Below the pieces are notes generated by a model. The model was not told the origin of the DNA. It did no database searches and was given only the letters and a program-made list of their open reading frames with translations. From Massiliimicrobium timonense (GTDB lineage: Bacteria > Bacillota_I > Bacilli_A > Erysipelotrichales > Coprobacillaceae), in assembly GCF_002160865.1 (NCBI RefSeq), contig NZ_NFLJ01000032.1, forward strand, positions 1 through 37,687: DNA of 37,687 bases, written 5' to 3'. The stretch's first letter is position 1. Each line of letters begins with the position of its first letter. Positions 1 through 36,467 of this stretch are shown here, one piece after another. Both the position numbers and the translations under genes were made by a program.

Positions 1-47
1 CTTGCTAATTTATCAAGTAATACACATATAATTTTTTTGATGTCCAT
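1..47 (-). CDS. Start of a small gene cut by the left edge (possible AgrD-like peptide)
   Basis: Fifteen codons are visible before the window ends, beginning MDIKKIICVLLDKLA. An excellent ribosome site (AAGGAGG) lies 7 bases before the ATG, which is the main reason to call it a gene. The visible part is a short amphipathic, Leu/Ile-rich helix. That resembles the leader of AgrD autoinducer precursors, and an agrB gene lies about 550 bases away on the opposite strand. The family match is inference: the part of an AgrD that becomes the peptide is beyond the edge. Any small membrane-active peptide or larger protein with such an N-terminus would fit equally well. Confidence 0.42.
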   Translation of the reverse strand, partial: MDIKKIICVLLDKLA

Positions 48-250
48 ATTTTTTCCTCCTTATTTTTATATTTGAATTAATATTAAAATATATAATTAAA
101 GCTTCAATTAATACTAAATGATTAGTCAATTGTTTCAGTGATCTATTGATTTGAACAATCTTATTTTTTCACTTATATAGTACTATTGTTTAAACATTAA
201 ATATATTTTTTTTCGCTGAATGCATATTTATGTTTATATAAGACAAAAAA

Positions 251-287
251 TGTTACTTATTGTGCCATTGTTACCTATAGTGTCATT
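251..287 (+). promoter_or_regulatory. Direct-repeat operator upstream of XRE-agrB
   Basis: Two imperfect direct repeats with an 18-base period, TGTTACTTATTGTGCCATT and TGTTACCTATAGTGTCATT (16 of 19 identical), lie 31 to 67 bases before the XRE start codon. A weak -10-like TATAGT (276-281) falls inside the second copy. Tandem same-face repeats of this kind usually bind a regulator dimer at a promoter. The XRE protein encoded next is the obvious candidate, but this is inference. Confidence 0.45.
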
Positions 288-317
288 ATTTGATGTAATT
301 TATCATTGGTGATATAA

Positions 318-629
318 ATGAATTTTGGAGAAAGACTTAAAAAATTGTGTCAGGACTATCAGTATACACAAAATACTTTGGAAGAAATTACAGGAATTGA
401 TAGAAGTACTATTTCCGCTTATGAATTAGGGACTCGAAAGCCAAGTATAGAAAATCTTGAAACATTAGCAAGGGTTTTTAAGGTAAGCATTGATTATCTT
501 TATTGTAATTCAAATAAACATTTTCTAGATATAACTAACATTTCTGAGACTAACTATTACAAGATTATTGCAATTATAAAAGAAGAAGATTTAAATTTTG
601 AAAAAGATACTAGATTATTTAATAAATAA
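318..629 (+). CDS. XRE-family helix-turn-helix regulator
   Basis: A 103-residue DNA-binding protein. Residues about 5-62 form a Cro/C1-type HTH domain (GERLKKLCQDYQYTQNTLEE, then TGIDRSTISAYELGTRKPS and a final DYLY). The last 40 residues are a short tail with no recognised domain. The start is an ATG preceded by GGTGAT. The gene overlaps agrB by 32 bases, so the two are co-transcribed and probably translationally coupled. Direct repeats just upstream suggest autoregulation. A regulator directly fused in transcription to agrB, with no AgrC kinase or AgrA regulator in view, hints that it may replace the usual two-component output. That role is inference. Confidence 0.88.
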   Translation: MNFGERLKKLCQDYQYTQNTLEEITGIDRSTISAYELGTRKPSIENLETLARVFKVSIDYLYCNSNKHFLDITNISETNYYKIIAIIKEEDLNFEKDTRLFNK

Positions 630-1101
630 ATTACAAGATAGTGACACTTTAAATGAATATAATAGTGAAATCTTAGTATATGGTCTTGAAGTATTATTGT
701 ACAATGGATTTACTGCTTTTTTAGTTTTAGGCATATCACTTTTTTTTAATGAATTGTATTTTGGTACCCTGTTTTTGATAGCGTTTAGTATATTTAGGGT
801 TCTTTTTGGTGGATTTCATGCGAAAACGATTTATAGTTGTACAATAATAATGATAATAATAGTTTTGGGAGTCCATTTTATTAATAAGTTTGAATTTTTT
901 CATTATTATTTTATAACTGCAGTCACATTAATTGTTTATTGTCTAATTTTCTTTATTATGCAAAATAGGTATGTATACAGAAAATGTATAATTGTTATTT
1001 TATTTTGTACTATATTAATTTTATGTAACATACCAGATATGTATACTCCTGTTATTTTGGCATTATTTATTGCGGAAATGCTTTATTTTTTTAAAAAATA
1101 A
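598..1101 (+). CDS. agrB: AgrB-like accessory gene regulator protease
   Basis: A 167-residue polytopic membrane protein. AgrB proteins are membrane cysteine peptidases that cut and cyclise the AgrD precursor to make the autoinducing peptide. The family signature is clear: VYGLEVLL near residue 27, then RVLFGGFHAKTIYSC, with catalytic His74 and Cys81 seven residues apart as in the family. Several hydrophobic segments follow. The start codon is TTG at 598, inside the end of the XRE gene. It gives the expected AgrB length, but only a weak purine-rich ribosome site precedes it, so coupling to the upstream gene is likely. No agrD, agrC or agrA follows; a strong terminator does. It may serve a peptide encoded at the left edge or beyond. 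Confidence 0.9.
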   Translation: MKKILDYLINKLQDSDTLNEYNSEILVYGLEVLLYNGFTAFLVLGISLFFNELYFGTLFLIAFSIFRVLFGGFHAKTIYSCTIIMIIIVLGVHFINKFEFFHYYFITAVTLIVYCLIFFIMQNRYVYRKCIIVILFCTILILCNIPDMYTPVILALFIAEMLYFFKK

Positions 1102-1151
1102 CTTATTTGCATATAATGTTTTAAAAACCAAAAAAGTATTATTTCTCTAGC

Positions 1152-1185
1152 ATCACCATCACGCTAGTGTGATGGTGATTTTTTT
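1152..1185 (+). terminator. Intrinsic terminator after agrB
   Basis: A perfect 11-bp stem (ATCACCATCAC / GTGATGGTGAT) with a six-base loop is followed by a run of seven T. It closes the XRE-agrB transcript 51 bases after the agrB stop. Confidence 0.93.
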
Positions 1186-1556: not shown

Positions 1557-1982
1557 ATGATTGAATATATATTAATGGGTACAAAAAAACATGGATGTTC
1601 AATTGATAATCGTAAAAAGGAAATTATATATTACCAATTGCTAAGTTTGTACGAAAAAATTTTAAAAAAACCCCAGCAATTATTAATTAAATATTCGGAT
1701 ATAAAAAAAATTAAGATATGCTATGGGCTTACTACAGGAGTTCGATTTGATAGTGCACAAATTACTATGGAGGTATTAACAAATAACGATACAAGTTATG
1801 ATATTCCAGTTACGTATAATTCAACAAAAGATAAAGATATACTTTCATTTATAGAAATACTTAAAAGTTCAAATTTATTAATCGAGGATCCATACAACAT
1901 TTTCAGTTTATATCCTGAGACGAATCTAGATTTTATAGATTTTATAAAATTTATAAATAAAGAGCATTATCAAAAAGGATAA
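1557..1982 (+). CDS. Hypothetical protein, possibly missing a C-terminal membrane tail
   Basis: A 141-residue protein I do not recognise. The ATG at 1557 is chosen because AAGGAGG lies 7 bases before it; an upstream GTG at 1512 has no ribosome site. The protein is mixed alpha/beta in appearance, charged, with no signal peptide or membrane segment in the called frame. The stop follows a run of five A. In the -1 frame, 34 further codons (1979-2080) stay open and encode a hydrophobic segment (FLYFLGLITLLLWLLI) ending in IDK. The protein could therefore once have been a C-tail-anchored membrane protein, or be made so by slippage. The 370 bases upstream of the gene, after the agrB terminator, hold no other gene I can support. 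Confidence 0.7.
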   Translation: MIEYILMGTKKHGCSIDNRKKEIIYYQLLSLYEKILKKPQQLLIKYSDIKKIKICYGLTTGVRFDSAQITMEVLTNNDTSYDIPVTYNSTKDKDILSFIEILKSSNLLIEDPYNIFSLYPETNLDFIDFIKFINKEHYQKG

Positions 1983-5809: not shown

Positions 5810-8077
5810 TTATACTCCGCCTGCTGCTGCTTGACTCAAGACACCGATTGTTATTAAATATTGTACAACTAAGGCTTGTCCTCCAGGCGTAAAAGCTAGT
5901 GCCATTAGTCCAATAATTGTCGCAGCTGTTAATCCAAAAGCAAGCAATTCTTCAACATTAATTTCAAAATTATATTCTGGTTCATAAGTTGGAATAAGTT
6001 CAAAACTAATTTCCACAGTAATTTCTTCATCTAATTCATCTGAATCAGGCAAAATATCTTCTGATGTAATAATAAAAGTTAATTTTGGAAATGCTGAAGT
6101 TAAATCAACTTTTACTCCTATTTTTCCTGATGTAATTGATACTGCTACTTCTTTTAAATCATCAATTGTAGAGTTAATTATATCAATACCTTCAAAATCA
6201 CCTAATTCTATACCACTAATTAATCCTTCAATTTCTGCTTCACAAGATGCGGTTAATTTTCCGGTATTGTCAACATCAATTGTAATTGGATTACCATCAA
6301 AATTAGTTGCTAGTGTATCTGACACTTCTGCTGTTACTCTGACAGTTAATCCATTTAGTGAAATAGTATCTAATAAAAATTCTTGGTTATAAGTAAGGCT
6401 TGCATTACTAACTACATCTAAATATCCTAATGGTTCAAGTACATTATAGACAAACTGATCTCTTTGAATTTCAACCATATTTTCAGAATTGGATTCTGCT
6501 AATTGATCAGGTGTTAAATATGGTACTTCATCAAAATTAGAAATTCCTGTATCTCGTCCGGAATATCCTACTTTATCTAAGTCAAACGAAGGTGTTGAAT
6601 TGAATTGTTCGTTTCCTTTCAATTCATAAAACTGATCAAAAGCCCAGTTTTCTGGAATCGGATAACCTAAATTACAGCTATATCCACTAGACATATCTGC
6701 AACAAATGAGTATTTGGCTAATCCTAAATCACTGATGTAAGAACAGATGTATCTTGGAGCATAAATACCAATCTTATAATTCTTGCTATTTGTTGAACTC
6801 TTAAAAACTAGGTTTAATTTTTTAAAGTAAGGAACAATAAATGATGTCATTTGATAGCTGTAACAGTCAAAGTCTACTGCAAAGTAGATAACAGTACCTT
6901 CTGGAACTCCAATTCGTTTTGCTGCAGAAATTGCAGTATGTGCATCAACCGTTCCTTGTTTTAAATCTTGAAAATAACTTAATTGGTAACCTCCGTCTTG
7001 ATAGATAGGGAATACTCTTAAACCTGCATTTTTAATATTTTCAATTTCTTCAAAAGTAATGAATTTTCTTCTTGATCCAGCCACTGTCCCAGTTAAATAT
7101 CTTCCAACAACCTGATAACCGGCTGATTTTAAATCTTGAGCCTGTTGACTATTTAATACAGTTGAACAGTCACACGCTTTTGCAGTTCTGTTTGTATCAC
7201 CTTTACTTGTTAAAAGTGATTTCATTGTTGAGCAATTTACTTCTCCTGAAGTGACTAATCCAATACCTGTTAATGCATAGAATTCTTGGAACGCAGCTAC
7301 TTGAGATTTTGTAGTACTATCAAAATTCCCATCAAATCTTCCAGGATCATAACCGTTTAGGTACAATCCGTATTGAACTAATTTATTGTACTTGACATAC
7401 TCTCCATTTTGACCTTGTTTTAATACAGTAGGGAAATTAGCTGTTGTCTGATCTCCGAAATTAGTTCCATCTAAACTACCAATAAAATCTGTATAAATTC
7501 CTTCGGCAGCTTGTAGTGCAGCAATAAGTGCATAGGCAGTAAATCGTGAAACAACGCCATCACAAGGTCCAACACCGATAATATCTGACCAGTCAGCATT
7601 TAACTGTTGCTGAATTTGAACGATTTTATCTTTTCCACCACTAGTTTTATTAAACCAGTTCAATGAAACAAGTCCCATCCATACTTTCCAGTCGATAATT
7701 CCAGTTACTTCAATGTTTGCATCATCTTGAAATTCTCTTACTGCATTTACACCTGTTGTATAATAAACTCCAGTAATTCCTCCTGCATTATATCCTTTTG
7801 CAAATAATGCACACTGTAAAATACATACATTTGGAATTCCTTCATCATCAGCATTCATCTTAGAAATTGGATCTAATGATCTCATTTTAGACAATGTTAA
7901 ATCACCAACATTTCCAGTTACTGGAGAAATGCCATTTTCAATCTGGAATGCTCTGATAATTCCTTGACATAGAAGTGTTCCTGTTAGTCCATCTTCTTCC
8001 AATTTAACCCATTCACTTCTATGTCCATACATATTGTTTAAATATTTTTGTGCTTTTAAAATGTTAGCATCTGCCAT
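5810..8077 (-). CDS. Peptidoglycan-binding / DUF1906 glycoside-hydrolase-like protein, candidate released effector
   Basis: A 755-residue protein. Residues about 1-290 contain peptidoglycan-binding-like units (AQKYLNNMYGHR...GLTG; LQCALFAKGYNAG; YVKYNKLVQYGLYLNGYDPG...FDGNFDSTTKSQVAAFQEF). Residues about 302-505 are a DUF1906 (Rv2525c-like, GH25-related) domain with YQVVGRYLTG, VIYFAVDFD and YKIGIYAPRYICSYI. About 520-700 is an acidic, beta-rich region I do not recognise. About 709-750 is a hydrophobic tail (FGLTAATIIGLMALAF) that could enter a membrane. There is no signal peptide, although every recognisable domain acts on cell wall. It is last in the holin/lysozyme cassette and has its own promoter, so release by the holin and lysozyme is plausible (inference). 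The start is supported by AGGAGG. Confidence 0.85.
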   Translation of the reverse strand: MADANILKAQKYLNNMYGHRSEWVKLEEDGLTGTLLCQGIIRAFQIENGISPVTGNVGDLTLSKMRSLDPISKMNADDEGIPNVCILQCALFAKGYNAGGITGVYYTTGVNAVREFQDDANIEVTGIIDWKVWMGLVSLNWFNKTSGGKDKIVQIQQQLNADWSDIIGVGPCDGVVSRFTAYALIAALQAAEGIYTDFIGSLDGTNFGDQTTANFPTVLKQGQNGEYVKYNKLVQYGLYLNGYDPGRFDGNFDSTTKSQVAAFQEFYALTGIGLVTSGEVNCSTMKSLLTSKGDTNRTAKACDCSTVLNSQQAQDLKSAGYQVVGRYLTGTVAGSRRKFITFEEIENIKNAGLRVFPIYQDGGYQLSYFQDLKQGTVDAHTAISAAKRIGVPEGTVIYFAVDFDCYSYQMTSFIVPYFKKLNLVFKSSTNSKNYKIGIYAPRYICSYISDLGLAKYSFVADMSSGYSCNLGYPIPENWAFDQFYELKGNEQFNSTPSFDLDKVGYSGRDTGISNFDEVPYLTPDQLAESNSENMVEIQRDQFVYNVLEPLGYLDVVSNASLTYNQEFLLDTISLNGLTVRVTAEVSDTLATNFDGNPITIDVDNTGKLTASCEAEIEGLISGIELGDFEGIDIINSTIDDLKEVAVSITSGKIGVKVDLTSAFPKLTFIITSEDILPDSDELDEEITVEISFELIPTYEPEYNFEINVEELLAFGLTAATIIGLMALAFTPGGQALVVQYLITIGVLSQAAAGGV

Positions 8078-8104
8078 TTTTCTTTTCCTCCTGTTTTTCT
8101 ATTT

Positions 8105-8170
8105 TGTAGAATTTATACCGGTATGTTTTCTACATTTAAATAATACATCTACCGGAGAACACAATTGTGC
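8105..8170 (-). promoter_or_regulatory. Promoter and dyads of the DUF1906 gene
   Basis: On the minus strand the palindrome CACAATTGTG (8160-8169) is followed after exactly 14 bases by TATTAT (8140-8145). The same arrangement occurs before the ArpU-like gene. Downstream, near the expected transcript start, is an inverted repeat TGTAGAA / TTCTACA (8105-8111, 8128-8134) around the palindrome ATACCGGTAT (8115-8124). It may be an operator or a leader hairpin. Confidence 0.6.
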
Positions 8171-8185
8171 TTTTTTTAATTCTCA

Positions 8186-9034
8186 TTAATATAAATTGCT
8201 TGATGATATAGCTCCAGTGACTTTTCCGTTTACCCCAATTACTACTCTATCCCCATTGATTTGAATGATTTCATATTCATTATTGAATACAAAACTTGCA
8301 ATTGATTGCCCATCGTACCATTTTGAATCTGCTTTTACCTTTACTTTATCGCCAACGTGAAATGATTTGTTTTCACTTATTTGGTTATCTTTGACAAATG
8401 TATTTATCAGACCGTGATCATAACTGCAATCAAGATTACTTGAACTAATTCCTTCAATATTTTTTAATACACCGTTTTTAGCATTAGAAGTAAACTGATG
8501 CAATAAAACATGATTGAAAGGATTATACTGCAATTCATTGTTCCAGGTGTTATAGCCATTATTGTTCCCATAGTTTGCTAACCATAAAGTCCAGGCTGAA
8601 AATCCATCATTTGTGAGCTTGGTTTTAAACCAATTTTGGTTGGCATAAATACCAACTGAATATCCCGCATTTTCAATGGCATCACAAAATACTTTAGCTA
8701 TTTTATAATACATATCATTGCTTAGATTGCCTTGATAATCTGAGAACTCAAGATCATAGTAAATAACATTTACCTGGTACTTTTGACACGCTTTTAGTGC
8801 TAAATTTGCTTCTTTTTTTGCTTCTTCTTCATTTCTTGCATAGCAGAAATGATAAGCAAATAGTGGAATATTCAATTCATTAGCCTGTTTTGCATTATTG
8901 TCCCACTGTTTATCGATATTCGATGAACTCCATCCATAAGAGCATCTAGCAACAACTCCTGCAATATATTTCTTTGCCTTGCTTAAATCTACTGTTCCAT
9001 TATGATAAGAAATATCAATAATATAATTACTCAT
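8186..9034 (-). CDS. GH25 lysozyme (phage-type endolysin) with SH3-like tail
   Basis: A 282-residue muramidase that cleaves the glycan strands of peptidoglycan. Family marks: IIDISYHNG at the start, VIYYDLEFSD with the catalytic Asp and Glu of GH25, GIYANQNWF and LWLANYG. Residues about 225-282 (VGDKVKVKADSKWYDGQSIA) form a small SH3-like wall-binding domain. There is no signal peptide, as expected for a holin-dependent endolysin. The ATG at 9034 (MSNYIIDISYH) is preferred to an in-frame GTG three codons earlier. The gene overlaps the end of the holin gene by 8 bases, so the two are translated together. Confidence 0.92.
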   Translation of the reverse strand: MSNYIIDISYHNGTVDLSKAKKYIAGVVARCSYGWSSSNIDKQWDNNAKQANELNIPLFAYHFCYARNEEEAKKEANLALKACQKYQVNVIYYDLEFSDYQGNLSNDMYYKIAKVFCDAIENAGYSVGIYANQNWFKTKLTNDGFSAWTLWLANYGNNNGYNTWNNELQYNPFNHVLLHQFTSNAKNGVLKNIEGISSSNLDCSYDHGLINTFVKDNQISENKSFHVGDKVKVKADSKWYDGQSIASFVFNNEYEIIQINGDRVVIGVNGKVTGAISSSNLY

Positions 9035-9479
9035 TTTCTTCACCGATACTTTCTATATTTTTAGAAGCAGTTTCTAAACCTTTGATAAGTATTTGAGGAA
9101 CTTTACATCCTGCATCTACTAGATTTTCAAGGATACTTCTACATTCATTGATGATCAGAGAAGCAAGAACAAACCATCCAAGAAAAATCGTTACAGATAA
9201 ATCTATACTGATGATTTTTCCTAATTCCTGAAATCCCACAGGAATTAAGAAAGCAATCAATATCATTATCCAATATCCCATTTTTCTAATAATTCCTATC
9301 AATGCTACTGATGAGCTTTCTTGATTATTGATTCTTGCTTTTGCCCATCCAGTTAATGTATCGATAATATTCAGTAAAAGATACAGTAAAAATAGAATCC
9401 AGTGTTCTCCAAAAAGGGATGTAACGATTGTTAAAATAATAGAATATAACCATTGCATATATTCTGACATCTTTAACAT
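9027..9479 (-). CDS. Phage holin (Phage_holin_4_1 / TcdE-type)
   Basis: A 150-residue membrane protein with three to four hydrophobic segments and the family core LLLNIIDTLTGWAKARINNQESSS..IIRKMGYW. The charged C-terminus is usual for holins. Holins of this family make the membrane lesion that lets an endolysin, or toxins such as TcdA/B through TcdE, leave the cell. The ATG has AGGAG eight bases upstream and overlaps the stop of the ArpU-like gene by 7 bases. The lysozyme gene in turn overlaps its end. Three tightly coupled genes form the cassette. Confidence 0.93.
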   Translation of the reverse strand: MLKMSEYMQWLYSIILTIVTSLFGEHWILFLLYLLLNIIDTLTGWAKARINNQESSSVALIGIIRKMGYWIMILIAFLIPVGFQELGKIISIDLSVTIFLGWFVLASLIINECRSILENLVDAGCKVPQILIKGLETASKNIESIGEENE

Positions 9480-9817
9480 TTATGAATCTCCTGTAAACTT
9501 AATTTATTGAGTATATTTTTATATTTTCTAATAACAGAGCTATGATTTGCATAACCAAGCTGAATTGCAATAAAATCAAAGGTCTTTTTATCGATAATTC
9601 TTTTCTGAATAATTTCTGCTTCATCTGGCAATAAGGTATTTATCCAAGAATGAACAATATCAATAATATATGAATAATAATGATAGCAATTCTTTTCAAA
9701 GTTTGTAGCATTACTTTCACCATTGATTAATTGTTTTCTTTCCAAATCATTCAAATGTACTTTTGCAATAGAGTATAAATTTAGAGTAAGTTCAATTTCT
9801 TCACGAGAATAAAACAT
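9473..9817 (-). CDS. ArpU-like phage late-gene transcriptional regulator
   Basis: A 114-residue protein with a C-terminal helix-turn-helix resembling sigma-70 region 4 (LPDEAEIIQKRIIDKKTFDFIAIQLGYANHSSVIRKYKNILNKL), as in the ArpU/RinA regulators that control phage packaging and lysis genes. The N-terminal half is helical. It is first in the holin-lysozyme operon. Its promoter carries a palindrome at the -35 position and a second perfect palindrome over the probable transcript start. It may activate both cassette promoters, which share the -35 palindrome. That link is inference; the family assignment rests on size, the HTH and the gene order. Confidence 0.75.
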   Translation of the reverse strand: MFYSREEIELTLNLYSIAKVHLNDLERKQLINGESNATNFEKNCYHYYSYIIDIVHSWINTLLPDEAEIIQKRIIDKKTFDFIAIQLGYANHSSVIRKYKNILNKLSLQEIHKC

Positions 9818-9842
9818 TCTATCACTTACCCTTCTTTTAGTA

Positions 9843-9898
9843 ATTTGTAAAACGTTTTACAAATAAGATAATATATGTATTCTTAAGCACAATTGTGC
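9843..9898 (-). promoter_or_regulatory. Promoter and operator of the ArpU-holin-lysozyme operon
   Basis: GCACAATTGTGC (9887-9898) lies 14 bases (from the CACAATTGTG core at 9888-9897) before TATTAT (9868-9873, minus strand). A perfect 22-bp palindrome at 9843-9864 (half-site ATTTGTAAAAC) covers the expected transcript start. A further half-site, TTTACAAATTAC, lies upstream at 9917-9928. The layout fits activation at the -35 and repression at +1. Confidence 0.65.
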
Positions 9899-9928
9899 CT
9901 TTTATAGTGTGGTTTGTTTACAAATTAC

Positions 9929-10379
9929 GATAGTTTATTTCCTATGGGTAATCATTATAGAGAGAGTAAATATGAATTCTACAAACTTATCTATAATATG
10001 AAAATTTACTGAAATTTTGACGATAGAATCACATTTTGTTTTGTCGATTTTTAAGTGATAATGTAATATTATGAACATTATTGTCATAAATTATCTTTTG
10101 CGATTTTTTAAAGTTTTTAAGTATATAATGTTTATAAAAAAATAATAAAAGGACATGTTTTGAATGCCCTTTTATAAATTCAAGCATGATTAATGACTAT
10201 TTTAAGTGATAATTAAGCTGGTTGTTTTTTATAACTGGTTAGAAGTTAATAGTAATTAAATGTAAAAGAATAAATACAATGATGGAATTTATACTACAGT
10301 AGATTTATTAGTCAATTTTAAGGGTTGTAAAATTTTATTTAGTTGATTTTTTGATTGTTTTTTATTTTATTTATATTAA
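9929..10379. other. Gene-free AT-rich stretch
   Basis: No coding frame with a ribosome site is visible on either strand. The only structure I can support is the terminator at 10145-10175; the rest is AT-rich with small imperfect palindromes near 10060-10100. Confidence 0.6.
10145..10175 (-). terminator. Terminator of the transfer operon
   Basis: On the minus strand ATAAAAGGGCAT pairs with ATGTCCTTTTAT (12 bp, one G-U) around a seven-base loop. A T-rich tract ending in seven T follows. It lies about 200 bases after the CHAP gene and would close the long leftward transfer transcript. Confidence 0.8.
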
Positions 10380-12002
10380 TTATTTGGGCACTGCAAATAC
10401 TACTCCTTTGCATTTGGTGCGAAATTGGTCTAATGAGTAGGTTGCAGTATGCCAATCTTTTTTTGCATCTGCAAATGTATTGGTCACTCCATCTAGATTT
10501 CCTTCTTGAATTGTTATATTCTTTCCATTCCAACCAATAACTATTCCAACATGATTTCTTCCAACACATGAGAATACGGCACCGACTGCTGGTTCATTGG
10601 ATTTTATAAACTTATCTGGATGTGCCTGTAACAATTGATCAACACATTTCCAACCATCACCAATAAATCCGGGAGAATATCCATAGATTTCATAGAAACG
10701 TCCCCAAGCAAACCAAGTGCATTGGCCATAAAGATTTGCTCTTGAATATGGATTGTTGCTACCCCATGCATCCATATTATCAAAATTAGGTTGTTCTCGG
10801 TAATTCCCGAATCCTAGCGATACATATCGCATGACATGTTCTACATAATTTGGGTCGCCATAGACATCAGTACCTAGTTCAGCTTTTTTCTGATCTGAGA
10901 ATACTTTAGCATTGGCTTTAGAATATCCTCCAAAGTTTTTAACTGCCCAGTCTATATAACCATTACCGTAGTTGTAGCCCTGTAAAGCTAAAAAGATATG
11001 TTCATTATCAAAGCTGTCCTTGACTTGAGCTGATTTAAAGCAGTCTGACAGATAGTGTATACCTACATCAATGGAGTACTCTGGTTCCTGTATGGCATTA
11101 GGCTTATTTGGATACTTTGTATTGTAGGGACATTCTGAACTTTGCATGGGATCAGTTCCTTTTCCACCAGATTCCTGCATCATGACTGCCTGTATGATTG
11201 GAATATAATCTTCCATTTCATATTGCTTAGCATATTTTTCTATTGTATCAGTGTAAGCCAATACTTCTGCACTTAGTGGAGCATTTGTAGAGCTAACAGA
11301 TGAATTATCAGATAGGGCTGCAAAAACACCAATAAAAAGAAGGAGTACAAGTAATAATATGAGAGATATTCCAGCACCTATTAAATTGGAAACACTGAGT
11401 GCTGTTCTTCTGATGAATGTAAGAGAACCTTTTAGGGTTTTCATGGCTGATTGAGTGCCTTTTTTGATACGATTGCTTTTTTTTGAAGAATCTTTTATCT
11501 GTTTATAATTTTTTAATTTAACAAAACTTTTTATCTTATGTTGATAAGTCTTTTGATTAGCTGTTTCTTTTTTGATAGCAATATTTTTATTTTTAATTGG
11601 CAAAGACTTTGAATATTTTTTTATTTTTAAATCTTTTTGTACAGTTTTTCTTTTGTTAAGAGTATTGTTTTCAGATACTGCTTTATCTGATTTATGCTGA
11701 GAAGAAGATGATGGGGTAGGGGTATAAACATTTTGATTCTGCCTTTCAATAATCTTATTCTTTTTTCTTTTGACATATTGTTTTTTTGCATTTTTTATTG
11801 ATTGTTCTTTAACATTGTTTATAGCTTTTTTACCATTTTTAGATACATGATCAACAGCATATGTGTTCTGTGTCTCTTTTTCATCAGTATTACTATTTTC
11901 TTTTGAGTGTATAGTAATATTTTTAATATGCTTTCTTACATCCACAATTTTGTCTTTGCTTTTAATTTCCATGTTTTCTGTTTTTTTCTTGATTTCATTC
12001 AT
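10380..12002 (-). CDS. Membrane-anchored lysozyme/CHAP cell-wall hydrolase (CD1108/CwlT-like, VirB1 role)
   Basis: A 540-residue protein. Residues 1-200 are a very lysine-rich, low-complexity cytoplasmic region. About 207-230 is a single membrane helix (ISLILLLVLLLFIGVFAAL). About 245-400 is a lysozyme-like transglycosylase domain with the probable catalytic Glu277 in MMQESGG and a GYNYG motif. About 410-540 is a CHAP amidase/endopeptidase domain with Cys428 (YGQCTWFAWGR) and His485 (NHVGIVIGWN). In Tn916-type and Tn1549-type elements such two-domain enzymes open the wall for the conjugation machine. The gene follows virB4 with a 37-base gap that holds a hairpin. The 200-residue basic N-region is longer than I would expect and may bind DNA or other transfer proteins (inference). 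Confidence 0.93.
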   Translation of the reverse strand: MNEIKKKTENMEIKSKDKIVDVRKHIKNITIHSKENSNTDEKETQNTYAVDHVSKNGKKAINNVKEQSIKNAKKQYVKRKKNKIIERQNQNVYTPTPSSSSQHKSDKAVSENNTLNKRKTVQKDLKIKKYSKSLPIKNKNIAIKKETANQKTYQHKIKSFVKLKNYKQIKDSSKKSNRIKKGTQSAMKTLKGSLTFIRRTALSVSNLIGAGISLILLLVLLLFIGVFAALSDNSSVSSTNAPLSAEVLAYTDTIEKYAKQYEMEDYIPIIQAVMMQESGGKGTDPMQSSECPYNTKYPNKPNAIQEPEYSIDVGIHYLSDCFKSAQVKDSFDNEHIFLALQGYNYGNGYIDWAVKNFGGYSKANAKVFSDQKKAELGTDVYGDPNYVEHVMRYVSLGFGNYREQPNFDNMDAWGSNNPYSRANLYGQCTWFAWGRFYEIYGYSPGFIGDGWKCVDQLLQAHPDKFIKSNEPAVGAVFSCVGRNHVGIVIGWNGKNITIQEGNLDGVTNTFADAKKDWHTATYSLDQFRTKCKGVVFAVPK

Positions 12003-28190: not shown

Positions 28191-31100
28191 TTATCTTTCA
28201 TGATTGATAGTCTTATCTTGAATGATTACTGATGATTCCTCTAAAGGGATTGTTTCTTTATTATTTTGATTTCCTATATCCAGCTCTTTGTTCAGTATAG
28301 CTAAACGAGATGACTTATCCTGCAGTTCCTGTTCCTTGTCAAATGGTCGAACAACTTCTTCCTTTGCATTATGAAATTGTTGTTCTATAGTTATTAGAAG
28401 GCTTTTTTCAGTCTCTAATTTTTTTGAAATTGAATTGATCTGATTATCAATTCTTGTAATATTTCCGTAAACATCATTTCCTAGATCTATCATGTATGTT
28501 CCGTTTTTCTTTAATGTCAATTGATGATAGGAATGGAACTGGTCATAAGAGAGGTGTAATTCAAAGCCACGATATTCACCAATCAGTTTTTGATTCGATG
28601 ATTTATCTTTCTCACATAAGATCAGCAATGCTTTTCCTGCAGTTTCCTTTTCCAAGTAAAAATGATTCTGTAATGTCATTCCACTAAATTCCTCAACAGG
28701 TGAAGTGCTGTCCAGATCTTTTTGATAGTCATTGATTTTTTCCTTGATGGAGGCAATTTTCATTGGGTAATACTTAATAATTTTATCTTCCAAATCATAT
28801 TTTTCGCTTAGATAATTAGCTTTTGCTAGTTTCAATCTATTGACTTGTATGTCGAGATCCATCTTTTCCTTTATCTTTGGATTTCCACTTGCGAGGGCTT
28901 TGATTTCAGCATAGCTTAACGTAACTTCATCTATATCTTCTGCTGAGCGGACAGGACTCTTTGATGTCTGTATCTGTGAAATAAACTTTTGCTTACTTTC
29001 TATAAGCTGGTATAAATAACTATCAAATGTCTGTTCCGTTACATATCTATAGATTTCTACATCACTGTTTGTATTCCCCTGACGGATAATTCTTCCTGAT
29101 CTTTGCTCCAGATCGCTTGGTCTCCAAGGACAATCGAGGTCATGAGAAGCTATCAGTAAATCTTGGACATTCGTACCAGCACCCATTTTAGCAGTAGATC
29201 CAAGCAATATACGAACACTTCCTTGTCTTACTTTTGAGAAGAGTTCTTTCTTTTTTGTATCTGTTGCAGCATCATGAATATATGCAATCTCATTGGGTGG
29301 AATGCCATGTTCAATAAGTTTTTTGTAGATGTCATCATAAACATTTGTGTATGGAATATTTACATTTTGTTCTAGCTTTTCAAGAAATGCTTTAGAGGTT
29401 TTCTGTGGAGTAGACATGTCACAAAAAATAAGCTGAGTAGATTTTTTATCTTTGGTATCTTCATAGATGCGAATGACATTATCAATACACGTATTGACCT
29501 TGCTATGAGGGTTGTCTCCTAGAGTTGGATCAATGAGTCTTTGATCGAGTGCAAGTTTTCTTCCATCATTGGTAATCTTTAGCATATTGTCCACCGTTGG
29601 ATCGATATTTTCATTACGTATGGCTTCAGCTCTTTTTGCAAATTCTGCAACGATTTCTTTCTGTTCTTCACTTGGCTTGACTGCAATATTGTGATAATGA
29701 GCAGTTGGAGTAGGGAGATTAAGCATATCTGCTGTCTTGATATCTGCTACTTCTTTGAACATGTTAATCAGTTCTGGCAGGTTGAAAAATTTTGCAAATC
29801 TTGTCTTCATTCTGTAACCAGTTCCTTCGGGTGCCAACTCAATAGCTGTTACTGTTTCGCCGAATGTTGAAGCCCATGAATCAAAATGTTCCAATCCGTG
29901 TTCTTTTAATGTGTTGTATTGAAGATAACGCTGTATTGTGTACATTTCCGTCATGGAGTTGGATATAGGAGTACCCGTCGCAAAGACAACGCCTTTGCCA
30001 CCTGTGATTTCATCTAGATATTGGCATTTCATGAACATATCCGAAGATTTTTGTGCCTCTGTTTGGGTTAGACCTGCAACATTTCTCATCTTGGTATAAA
30101 GGAAAAGATTCTTATAGTTATGGCTTTCGTCAACAAATAATCTATAAATGCCAAGTTCCTCGAAGTAGATAACATCATCTTTTCTTTCATCATTGTTTAG
30201 CTTTTCGAGCCTTTTCTTTAACCCTTTTTTAGTTCTTTCCAATTGTTTGACTGAGAATCTTTCACCACCATTTGCCTTAAGGTCCTGAATGCCGTTTGTT
30301 ATGCTTTCGATTTGATCTTCAATGAGTTTACGTTGTCTTTCTACAGAGATAGGAATTTTTTCAAACTGTGAATGTCCAATGATAACTGCATCCCATTCAC
30401 CAGTAGCAATACGTGAACAGAACGTCTTTCGTTTGCTTTTTTCAAAATCCCTTTTTGTTGTTACAAGAATATTTGCACTTGGATAGAGTCTTAGAAATTC
30501 AGAACCCCATTGTTCAATCAGATGGTTTGGTACAACGAACATTGCTTTTTGAGATAATCCAAGACGTTTTAATTCCATACACGCAGCAATCATTTCAAAA
30601 GATTTCCCTGCTCCAACTACGTGAGCAAGAAGTGTATTCCCACCATATAGAATGTGAGCAATCGCATCTTTTTGATGCTTCCTTAAACTGATTTCATTGT
30701 TCATGTTTGGAAATTCCAGATGATCTCCGTTGTACTCACGAGGACGAATGGAATTGAATAGTTCATTATATCTTTTTACAAGATGTTCTCTACGATCGTA
30801 ATCTTTCCATATCCAGTTGGTGAATGCTTCCTTGATAGCTTCTTGCTTTTGTTGGGCAATCATCGTTTCTTTTTTATTAAGAATAGCGACTTTCTTGCCT
30901 TCATCATCATATTCGTAATCGTAGATTTTTGTTGTCTTTAAATTAAGGCAGTCTTCCAACAGACGATACGCATTCGCTCGATGTGTCCCATACGTTTTTT
31001 CGGCTTTGGCATTGCCTCTATCCCAGTTCTTGTTCGATATATTCCAGTTTCCAGTAGCTTTTGAATAGGTAATATTGATTCTTGATTGAACAAAAGTGGA

Positions 31101-34100
31101 GGTCGATAGAAGTTCATGCATGAAATCTTCATAGATATTTTCAGGTATCCACGTTGCTCCAAGCCTTACTTCAATCTCTGAAGCGGACAGTTCATCAGGC
31201 ATAGCCTGTTTTAATGCATCAATATTTTCTTGATAGATAGGATTGATGGAAACTGCCATCTCTGCTACTTTCAATTTTTGGCGAATATTGCCACTCAAAT
31301 ATTCATCAGCAGTGACATAGACTTCATTGTTATCATCAATGTCAGGAAATTGATAGATGACACCCTTTAAATCTTCTACCATTTTCTCTTTATCAAATCC
31401 TGTCAGCTGATTCATGTAATCAAAATCTATCTTTGCTTTTTCGGCTAGTGAAATCATAAGTGCTTCATTGGAAGTTTCAACACTTTCAACAGGAACATGT
31501 TTACGGATTGTACGTTTAGAAAACATATCGGCTTTTGACTTAAGCGTACCATCTTCATTTAAGTTTTCCAGCGAACACAAAAGATAGTAGGAACTGTCAT
31601 CACGGAAAGCTAAACTATTTCCACGGGAATTGATGAGTCCATATTTTTCTGTGAATGCATCATAAAGGATATTTAGTCTTTTCTGTTCGTTTTCAATGAC
31701 TAGCTCTTCAAAATCTTCTTTCTGATAGTTGATAAGATTACGTACACAGTCACGAATTTCTATCATGTCGGTAATACGATTTCTTGCAGTTTCAGTCAGT
31801 TCCATTTTCGTCATAATGCTGTTTTCTCTGAAATAGATATCACCATCAATGAGCGTGTAGCTGAAGTTTTTTACTGTTGGATCTGCAGGTATCGTCACTA
31901 TTTCTTCATTGGAATCTTCAATGACGTTATCGTCGAAGATGATCTGATCCATCTTACCTTGGATATTTGAAATAGCTTTTTCAAGTGAATCCTTCAATGG
32001 AATATCATCAAAAGGAACAACGGTCAATTCATCACGTCCATACATTGACTTTGACATTTCAAAGTTTCCCAGTACCATGTCCGGATGGTTCTGGAAATAG
32101 GCATTATAGACAAAACCATTTGCATCCTCTTGTGTATATAGCCATGGTTCATCAACCACCATCGGTCTTTCACGTTTCTTCAAAAACAGGATATCACTGA
32201 CCGCTTTGGTGTTTGCACTTTCTTTGAAAGCTGTATTAGGAAGTCTGATTGCTCCAAGCAGTTCAGCATGTTCGGATATATATTTTCTGACAGAAGAATT
32301 AGCTTTGTCCATCGTGTATTTCGATGTTACGAAGGCAATGATACCACCAGTTCTTACTTTATCCAGTGTCTTTGCAAAATAGTAATCATGGATATTGAAA
32401 TTAAGTTTATTATATCTTTTATCAGATACCTTGAACTGTCCAAATGGAACGTTACTGATGGCAACATCGAAGAAACTGTCCGGAAGATTTGTATTTTCGT
32501 ATCCATCTATCGTGATATTGGCTTTCTGATACAGTTGTTTAGCAATTCGTCCTGTGATTGAATCCAGTTCGATTCCATACAATTTCGAATTCTGCATTTG
32601 TTGAGGCAGTCTTCCCAAGAAGTTACCAGTCCCGCAGGCTGGCTCCAGTATATTTCCATACTTGAATCCAAGATTGTTCAAAGTAGAATAGATGGAATCA
32701 ATCACGATAGGTGGAGTATAGAAAGCTGTTAAAGTAGACTCTCTTGCTTGTGTATATTCTTCATCATTAAGTAGTGATTTCAATTCTGTATATTCATTTG
32801 CCCAGTTCGATTTTGTAGAATCGAATACATCAGAAAGTCCACCCCAGCCAACATATTTAGCAAGGATTTCCTGTTCATCTTTATTTGCCAGACGATTTTC
32901 CTTTTCCAAAGAAAAAAGCAGCCTGATGGCTGCAATGTTGTTCCTATATCTTTCTTTTGGTGTACCTGATCCAAGATGTTCATTATCGATGTGATAGTTA
33001 ACTGGCTCTTCTTGAGATTTGTTCTGTTCAGCTTGATTGTTAAGCTCTTGAATAATGTTATTGTTATCAAATTTATGAGAATTTTTGATAGAATTGGTAA
33101 GATTATGTACATCTGCATAATCTATAAGTTTGTCGTAAGGCATACTTGAATAGATGATTTCTCCATTATCATTATAATCCACATGATACGTACCGATTTT
33201 TTCATCATTCATGTAAATTTGTTCAGATTCCAGATAATAATCTTTATCCTTAATATTTTGTAACCATGTTAAGGCATACTGAAGCATATCGTTTTGTATG
33301 AATTCATTTGAATCATTATCAGTATTAAATTCAACATTGAGTAGAGGATTGCTGTAATAGATAGGGCTAATTGCCTTATCAGTGGAATCATAGAAAAACT
33401 TCATATGCGGTTCAGTTATCTCGATACCATTAAGTTCATACCAGTGATACATTTCAATGATTTTCTCATCACTATTATAGAAAATAGTAAGAGGATGTTC
33501 TTCACTGTTTTTCGAATAAAATGTCATCATGTAGGACTGAACATCTAAAATGTTTGGTACAAGTTCGTATAGTGCATTATAAAGTTCTGATGTTTCCTGA
33601 ACAGGTAATGTCGAAATATCATTATAGACCTTATCAATAAGATGATCTATAACCTTTTCTCTGAAAACATCATTGGTTGTATAAAGATTATAGATAGCTT
33701 CATCTGTCATGTTTATAGATGTCATGATGTCAATCATAGTTTCTCGAATCAGCAACTCTGCCTCATGTACATCTGTATCACGATTTCTTAATCGAGGGTA
33801 GTATTCACTTCGTTGAATCCTATCAATAAATACAGGAATATATTCATCAAGAAGCTGTTGTTCGCTAGTTTTATGATTATCTTCTTCGATTGCAACTAGT
33901 AATTTATCATTAAGTGGGTTTTCCTTTAAAAGAGATTTGAATTCTTCTCTTGATAGGTAATCAATAAATAAAGGAAATTCATCACTTTGGATAGCAATCT
34001 GATTTCCATCTTCAATGATTGTATATTTGTCAGCACCTTTGTAGAGCTTATCACCAATTTTCCAACGATAGTCTTTTTTGATATTTTCATCTGTACTGTT

Positions 34101-36467
34101 TTCCACAACCATACCAGCTGGTTCATTATTTGACATTTTATGTTCATACTCAAGCTGCTGTTCCATCTGCTTCTGAAGAAATGCAGGGTATCCTTCCATT
34201 TCTTCCTCATTGAGATAACGATTTGTAGCAACAAGCTCACTGATTCTTTTAGCAATCTTTTTCCAGTTAAGGGTTATCTTTATTTCTTCTTTGCCTATCT
34301 GTCGGCTTCTAGAAAATTTGATTCCTCTGCTGTCGTAATTTATATCAATCAGTCCTACTACTGGAGCAAAACCACCAATTCCATATTCTTCTTTTAAAAA
34401 CAGGGCATTTTCATTGACTGAATGTTTTTTGAGCATTAGCTGATAGATTCTGTATTTCCCATTTTCAAAACCACTGCCACGAACAAGAGCACGGTCTATT
34501 TCCTCTTGAGAAAAATAAATACCGTTTTTGAGCTGTTCCTCATTTTCATATATAGCTGTTTGCTGTTCTTCAATAGTTGGAATTTGAACACTAGGATCAA
34601 AATAGCGTGATAGAATCATGCCGTCTATTTCGCTTTCTACAAGGGACCAACTGTAATCACTAGATGCTTTCTGATCATCATACGGTCCCATGTAGATATG
34701 CAGATGCTCATTCTCTTTCTTGAATCCAAGAATGACACCATCCACTTCCATTTCTACAATCTGGTCAGGATAAAAGTCCTTTATGAACTGTATACGCTTT
34801 TGTCGATCTTGTTCATTGTTTAGAAATTCAATAATTTCGGTAGAGTTTTTTCTGAACTCATTTTTATATGAAAACAGATAATAGTCTACATTTCTATTCA
34901 TTAATCCTTTTTCATAGGTCAGTTGAATAGGAGTCATGCCTTTCTGTCTAGAATATAGATATTCGTCGTTCTCAATTAATTTTGCGACTTCCAATTGAAG
35001 CTGAAAGAAAGATAAATGAGATTTGGATTTTTTGTTTTGCCAGCTACCAGCCCATACATTAAGCCCGTTACCATCTTTCTTGTAACCAATATAAGAGTAG
35101 TCATTTTTTTCTGGACGTCGGAATGTTTCCACTAGAGTATCATCATAACATTCTGCAAGATAATCGGCACGTTCCTTATCGTCCGTATGTTCCATAAAGA
35201 ACTGTTGAATTTCTTCACGAGAATGTTGAAGTGAAACATCTTCACGTAATAACGTAGGTAAATCCTGCAAATCAAAAGGTGGTAAAGCATTTTTTATTTC
35301 TTCACCACCTAATCCTAAATCTAATTGTAGATTATCTCTGCTAAGATTATTTCCTCGGCTTGTTCTTTTAGATTGTCCATATGTTGTACCCATTCCATCT
35401 GATGAGTTTCCTTGTCTGGAGCTGGCTGTTTCTTCAGCAATTCCTCCATCAAAATTTCCATTTTTTGTACTGCTTCCTGATTGATTGTTTTTAAATGTTT
35501 GTTCAGTTTGTTCTTCGCTTTCAATGCGAGAAGATGTGCCGGATAGTTTGTTTTGAGGTAATTGTATCTCATCCTTGCGTATCGGCTGTTGAAGATTGGT
35601 TCTTCTGCTTTCAGATTTGGCATTAGATAATCTCCCACTTGATTGTACGTCAATTCTTTCATGTATATCGCTCCTTTCGTTGTTTACACCTCTATTTTGT
35701 ATCATTTGTTTGGACTGTTCAAATGTACGAATCATAATTTCTTTTGCTTTTGCAGAAATATCATTCATGCCTATTTCACATATGTCACGACTTGCTGTTC
35801 CAAGCTGCATGATCATGTCAATGGAATTGAAATCTTTTATAGCATAGAAATCTTCAGCAGTAAAGTAATCATTAACATTCAATCCACTTCTATGAATGAT
35901 CTCGAATGCTATGGAGTTTGCTAATAATGACTTAAATTCAGTCATGATTTCATGTTCTTCCATATGCTCAAGTTCGCTATCTTTTCGAAATTTGAGTAGG
36001 GGAGGAAGATAATCCTGCATATTTTCTTCAGCAATGATAGATGACATTTCAATGATTGCATGTCCTAGTTCTATAGAAAAATTCATATTCCCATACTTAT
36101 TTTCAAGCATATGGATATATTCTAATTCGTCTTTTATTTCTACTCTCCATAGATGGAGAGGCTTAAAGCTGGGACTGCGGGTATCCTTGATATCAAATAC
36201 ATATCTTAAGGTGTTATCATCATTTAAAAGAGCAATACCTTTAGAGCCTTTGCGTATCCATCGACTATGTTTTTCATTCCATGTTTCAAAAGATGCACAT
36301 GCTTTCGCATCTGGCTTTTGAGCATAAATTAAAAGTTGATCAGCAAAATCGTATTTAAACATATAAGCTGATGTTTTTAAGAATGCCATCCAATTATAAG
36401 GGGATTTGGAAAGGTTCTCAGCTTGTTCAAGTAGAAGCTCATGTATATATTCATATTTTGTTTTCAA
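28191..36467 (-). CDS. Giant ArdC-like / N6-methylase / SNF2-helicase protein (LtrC-like)
   Basis: A 2758-residue multidomain protein. Residues about 1-250 include an ArdC-like region ([30 protein letters not shown]). About 260-420 is low complexity. About 430-1150 holds repeated mixed domains I cannot assign. About 1170-1500 is an N6-adenine methylase ([15 protein letters not shown] near 1271; [10 protein letters not shown] in place of the usual NPPF). About 1900-2500 is a SNF2-type helicase: Walker A VVGAGKS near 1945, DESH near 2106, [20 protein letters not shown] near 2455. The end is coiled coil. The start codon is TTG, supported by AGGAGG seven bases before it. Such giants are common in Tn1549-like ICEs and may protect or process transferred DNA. 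Confidence 0.93.

Follow-up and report, generated by a model that had tools for sequence, protein, structure and literature searches.

A probable half of a divergent agr-type quorum-sensing locus on a conjugative element, with a candidate XRE-controlled AgrB maturase and an apparent pseudokinase receptor in relatives

The window, the whole 37,687-bp stretch of DNA from Massiliimicrobium timonense analysed here, is an entire contig (C40) and carries close to its left end a short operon in which xre, coding for a helix-turn-helix (HTH) regulator, is followed by agrB, coding for a predicted peptide maturase and exporter (Table 1). The two genes overlap by 32 bases and agrB starts with TTG, as an earlier sequence-only reading of this DNA had described, and the His74 and Cys81 of AgrB that it reported as intact are both present and invariant across four aligned relatives. 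The operon ends in an intrinsic terminator, the only one found by a scan for which shuffled sequences gave an expectation of 0.1, and none of the genes to the right of agrB is an agrD or encodes a kinase or regulator of agr type, again as had been noted. A scan for sigma-70 promoters gave matches no more numerous than in shuffles. The proposed coupling of agrB to xre is borne out by the related genome G033, where an overlap (20 bases) and a TTG start recur with an AgrB just 35% identical to that of the window.

Table 1. Features of the locus; coordinates are those of the window unless a locus handle (L) is given.
Feature	Coordinates	Strand	Basis and remarks
agrD, 5' part	1..47	-	MDIKKIICVLLDKLA; contig end cuts frame ahead of core peptide
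agrD ribosome site AGGAGG	55..60	-	sequence reading; G001 has the same site
Tandem dyad (GNNAC-N5-GTNNC) x2, candidate XRE operator	252..284	.	33 bp, 18-bp spacing, 4 divergent loci
xre, 103-aa Cro/CI-type HTH regulator	318..629	+	Pfam HTH_3, 54.9 bits
agrB, peptide maturase/exporter (predicted)	598..1101	+	TTG start inside xre; Pfam AgrB PF04647, 66.9 bits, cut-off 23
Intrinsic terminator ending the xre-agrB operon	1152..1185	+	stem 1152-1179 plus T run
141-aa conserved neighbour	1557..1982	+	no Pfam match; tie to agr positional only
G001 agrD, 37 aa	L006:8892-9005		MDIKKIICVLLDKLARISCNSYSFIGCYEPEKPKDLK; continuation of the window's cut frame
AgrC group without ATP motifs	L031, L007, L033, L034, L037-L040, L096, L097, L100		

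At the left edge, a minus-strand frame running from position 47 to position 1 is still open where the contig stops, and the strong ribosome site attributed to it is indeed there, AGGAGG being the reverse complement of the window's letters. Because the window is the whole contig, its own assembly (2.78 Mb in 113 contigs, 99.6% complete) holds no DNA to the left of position 1. The same DNA can be followed further in G001, a genome of the same genus in which it lies on a single contig; positions 1-682 of the window are 99.7-100% identical to G001, with 95-99.7% identity extending over almost all of the contig (1-36,540). In G001 the cut frame continues into a complete AgrD that scores 33.9 bits against NCBIfam TIGR04223 quorum_AgrD (cut-off 19 bits), which confirms the earlier suspicion of an AgrD-like gene at the edge. 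Next to it come genes for AgrA, a LytTR response regulator of 233 aa, and then for an AgrC-like receptor. Genes for AgrA and AgrC also lie just beyond in G033 and in G004 (an uncultured Massilimicrobiota MAG of the window's genus, CALVFK010000029.1), and in Stoquefichus (G032, Candidatus Stoquefichus massiliensis AP9, NZ_HG005294.1) agrA is present together with an agrC that is cut by a contig end. The description of agrB as an orphan hence does not hold: its orphan appearance is an effect of the contig end, since the same DNA in G001 runs on into agrD-agrA-agrC. We infer that this half of the locus lies just past the contig end in the window's organism as well.

A complete agr locus just outside the window had been named as the outcome that would speak against the earlier reading, and such a locus is found in the relatives but not in the window's own assembly. 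There, a search for agrD-agrA-agrC DNA returned only a 59-bp overlap at the contig end and one 55-bp match of 78% identity, while protein searches returned only distant paralogues of AgrA (best ≤26% identity) and no AgrC, so that we infer, and do not observe, agrA and agrC in this cell. The agrD-agrA-agrC half could alternatively have been lost or replaced in this organism, leaving xre-agrB as a remnant or in the service of an AgrD encoded elsewhere, and the near completeness of an assembly that lacks this DNA, an AgrC protein and a close AgrA is what such a loss would produce. The contig stops inside agrD, however, and up to that point the gene is undamaged and matches G001 exactly in its start, its ribosome site and 15 codons; a stretch of 2 kb flanked by the contig end and a transposase-like gene (L006:11011-12021) can readily go missing from an assembly. 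We regard a loss as improbable.

Four lineages of the family share the divergent arrangement of xre-agrB and agrD-agrA-agrC. Relative to the window, AgrB is 39% identical in Stoquefichus and 29% in G004, and XRE is 55% identical in G033, 38% in Stoquefichus and 46% in G004; the AgrD of G033, Stoquefichus and G004 is 69%, 49% and 46% identical to the G001 copy. An AgrB search at order level matched 57 of 315 genomes at E 1e-6, and E values below 1e-40 were reached by only five of the 315, all of this divergent type, four of them being rows of the query alignment itself and the fifth, G001, a near copy of one of these rows. A phylum sample of 392 genomes yielded only the window's own genome at E 1e-20, the other carriers evidently falling outside that sample. 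Viral contigs, plasmids and phages gave no AgrB match, and four loci that an XRE scan picked out in viral contigs were all without AgrB.

The AgrD of G033 likewise passes the TIGR04223 cut-off (25.8 bits), that of G004 stays below it (15.6 bits), that of Stoquefichus has no match to this family, and none of the AgrDs matches Pfam. Among 20 AgrD candidates, 14 have Ser five positions ahead of the tail anchor, four have Cys and two have Thr; a core Cys or Ser was required by the filter that picked the candidates, which partly accounts for the occurrence of such a residue but not for where it stands. Ser occupies this position at 12 of 12 loci of the main group with a degenerate AgrC (described below) and its kin, including G001 and Stoquefichus, in an alignment in which L034 and L100 were placed by eye; at L033 an AgrD was sought and not found. 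The predicted signal is a five-residue lactone closed through Ser, SFIGC in both G001 and G033.

The AgrC receptors were compared in an alignment of 33 of 50 AgrC-profile matches, from which we excluded fragmentary sequences, near-identical copies, a number of other loci and the G001 protein, which is split over two frames. The H-box His is invariant (33/33), and Pfam HATPase_c_5 matches 20 of the 33, with no HATPase match for the AgrC of G033, G004 or G001. In 12 of the aligned proteins neither an N-box nor a G-box is found (0/12 each), compared with 18/19 and 16/19 in the others and two unclear cases; as the 12 were selected by the state of their N-box, independent evidence comes from the G-box and from Pfam. 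Homology between these degenerate proteins and the remaining ones extends over 406 columns of a forced global alignment, and a tree computed with the ATPase part removed puts 11 of the 12 in a single group (support 94/98, not starred), the AgrC of L091 standing apart on a long branch. The proteins of G033 and G004 and a G001 fragment, which is 50% identical to the G033 AgrC, belong to this group, and on that account so does the window's type. Judged by sequence, this group of receptors extends across the family and shows no visible ATP site, and its AgrC seems to be a pseudokinase receptor; a structure model of AgrC was poor (pLDDT 49) and is excluded from the evidence.

Asp54 of AgrA, the phosphorylation site, is kept in 53 of 53 proteins, partners of degenerate AgrCs included, and Lys102 in 51 of 53. 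LytTR and receiver domains are both over their cut-offs in the G033 protein, and in G001 the LytTR domain scores 41.6 bits and the receiver 28.1, under its cut-off of 30.2. Receptors without ATP-binding motifs also stand beside an intact AgrA at loci without an XRE gene. The invariant H-box His and the intact AgrA receiver would also fit a catalytically active AgrC whose ATP site goes unrecognised, making this an ordinary agr system in a new gene order. This, too, seems improbable to us, given that N-box and G-box are missing in all 12 and that HATPase_c_5 is matched in 20 of the 33 relatives collected in the same way.

Some copies of the locus look damaged. The agrB of G001 is disrupted by a roughly 2.6-kb insertion (L006:5690-8260) that by eye looks like an IS21 element, the window's copy being uninterrupted, and the agrC of G001 is split over two frames; in G004, a transposase-like gene or insertion separates xre from agrB. 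Where the reading frames of G001 and the window disagree, several of the differences lie in homopolymer runs, and for those sequencing error is the likely cause. The insertions in G001 agrB and in the xre/agrB gap of G004, together with the G001 frameshifts, could be taken to mean that the locus is decaying cargo of a mobile element with no present function, a reading that we hold to be slightly less probable than either of the two above: in G033, all five genes (xre, agrB, agrD, agrA and agrC) are open at 35-69% protein identity and the dyad is present, as with genes that are being kept, and the G001 frameshifts may be no more than sequencing errors.

Between the two halves lies the tandem dyad, which is preserved in all four spacers, sequences that otherwise hardly align. 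Its distance to the xre start is equal in three of the four loci, and in Stoquefichus the half-sites co-vary (GCGAC...GTCGC). With a pattern drawn up by eye after inspection of all four loci, the dyad occurs once per genome in five of five carriers, always at the locus, and in neither of two other genomes of the same genus. Across the window's family it matches six of 43 genomes (five at the locus, one further), compared with one of 43 for a reversed-pattern control, and at order level 26 of 315, with pattern and control both matching more often outside the family. A stricter version of the pattern matched one viral contig, which carries no agr genes. The four XRE proteins have in common the recognition stretch TGIDR[ST]TISAYE. 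At other agr loci the XRE proteins carry different recognition helices, and four spacers that were checked there contain no dyad, which points to an operator specific to the window's type of locus. The dyad is likely the XRE operator, and the simplest reading is that XRE is a dedicated local regulator; we assume that it acts by repression, as is usual for such proteins. A direct repeat at 72-87/103-118, ahead of agrD (16 nt, AT-rich, 31-bp spacing), may be a site for AgrA.

Other agr loci also have XRE genes nearby. An xre lies within 2.5 kb of agrB at 16 of 55 AgrB loci, compared with 8.9% of positions drawn at random from 400 kb of control DNA (binomial p 1.5e-5), the 55 being a chosen subset with family members first, in which related loci are not independent. 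Because these XREs differ in recognition helices and in position, a coupling of XRE to agr seems recurrent. One further arrangement is found in G002, of the same genus, where L091:579-4193 reads xre-xre-agrB-agrA-agrC with a divergent agrD that has a Cys-type core.

Peptide receptors of the RRNPP type, such as Rgg, ComR and PlcR, combine an HTH with a C-terminal TPR domain that binds the peptide. The window's XRE matches HTH families only, and its 103 residues are far too few for a TPR-type receptor. The suggestion of the sequence-only reading that XRE reads the signal inside the cell, which would make AgrA and AgrC secondary, finds an opening in the coupling of xre to agrB beside a peptide gene and in an AgrC that looks catalytically dead, yet it appears very improbable, as only some 40 residues follow the HTH, no ligand domain was found, and the relatives keep agrA and agrC with the phosphosite of AgrA intact. 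Most likely, XRE gates its own operon and with it the peptide maturase, not the read-out of the signal.

We consider it fairly probable, from sequence comparison, that the window holds one half of a divergent agr-type quorum-sensing locus on a conjugative element, with a pseudokinase AgrC and an XRE-gated maturase. In such a circuit, AgrB would cleave AgrD, close it to a small ring (predicted to be a Ser-Phe-Ile-Gly-Cys lactone) and export it, and the ring would act on the membrane receptor AgrC, which would in turn control the LytTR regulator AgrA. Because the ATP-binding part of AgrC is degenerate and the AgrA receiver intact, AgrC would most likely steer AgrA through sequestration, dephosphorylation or phosphate transfer, and not as a kinase. 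XRE would bind the tandem dyad before its own gene and regulate xre-agrB, which would place the maturase outside the autoinduced operon and under separate control.

The textbook agr quorum-sensing circuit has one autoinduced operon and one kinase. By sequence, the present locus has AgrB, AgrD, a LytTR AgrA and an AgrC-like receptor in common with the agrBDCA system of Staphylococcus. It differs in that agrB stands in a separate operon behind xre, with the remaining genes in the order D-A-C, in a predicted Ser in place of Cys at the ring position, and in an AgrC that lacks HATPase_c_5, N-box and G-box. The agr system of S. intermedius and the Fsr system of E. faecalis use ordinary kinases, neither is known to have an XRE-gated maturase, and the ring of GBAP, the Fsr signal, is four residues larger than the one predicted here. 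A lactone closed through Ser, as predicted here, is known from the former (PMC10482373) and from the GBAP signal of the latter (PMC3673130). Phage phiCDHM1 likewise carries agr genes on a mobile element; its description (PMC3901668) lists B, D and C but no response regulator, and the term XRE does not occur in it.

For a catalytically dead AgrC, a model is offered by the LytTR Regulatory Systems, in which a LytTR regulator is controlled by a membrane protein outside known signalling paradigms (PMC6193735); here the regulator differs in having a full receiver, and the membrane protein in being an AgrC homologue with, presumably, a peptide ligand. The pseudokinase DivL is similarly a repurposed histidine kinase, of another family and with another input (PMC4211667). 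Open-licence literature, searched by titles and abstract openings, yielded neither an XRE-coupled agrB nor an AgrC pseudokinase. That the locus represents a new agr class, in which a pseudokinase receptor relays a lactone signal by sequestration, phosphatase action or phosphotransfer to a LytTR regulator that can be phosphorylated but receives no ATP-driven phosphorylation from this receptor, and an XRE autoregulator controls only AgrB, switching signal output, is a possibility that we put forward tentatively and with less than even confidence. What sets the locus apart is a maturase split off beside a dedicated regulator with a visible, locus-specific candidate operator, and a receptor that seems to have lost its kinase function. 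Should this hold, peptide signalling in these gut bacteria, as a family, would proceed without receptor phosphorylation, and the separate gating of AgrB would give the cell a second way to decide when it may speak.

The surrounding DNA bears out the integrative and conjugative element proposed earlier, as the window contains a relaxase (PF03432) and a coupling protein (PF02534), along with a weak AAA_10 match for a type IV secretion ATPase. The window is collinear with G001, and tyrosine-integrase-like frames, read by eye, lie beyond. The 141-aa neighbour of agrB has a 57% identical homologue directly behind agrB in G033 and a 27% identical one in Stoquefichus, and none in the G004 contig; its predicted structure (pLDDT 71.5) resembles a PH domain, the best VIA match being that of SSRP1 with Z 9.3. 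Further into the element, window positions 5810-12002 hold three genes for cell-wall hydrolase-like proteins (one glycoside hydrolase-like with peptidoglycan binding, one GH25 and one lysozyme-like with CHAP), and a 2758-aa protein with SNF2/helicase and methyltransferase matches is encoded at 28191-36467.
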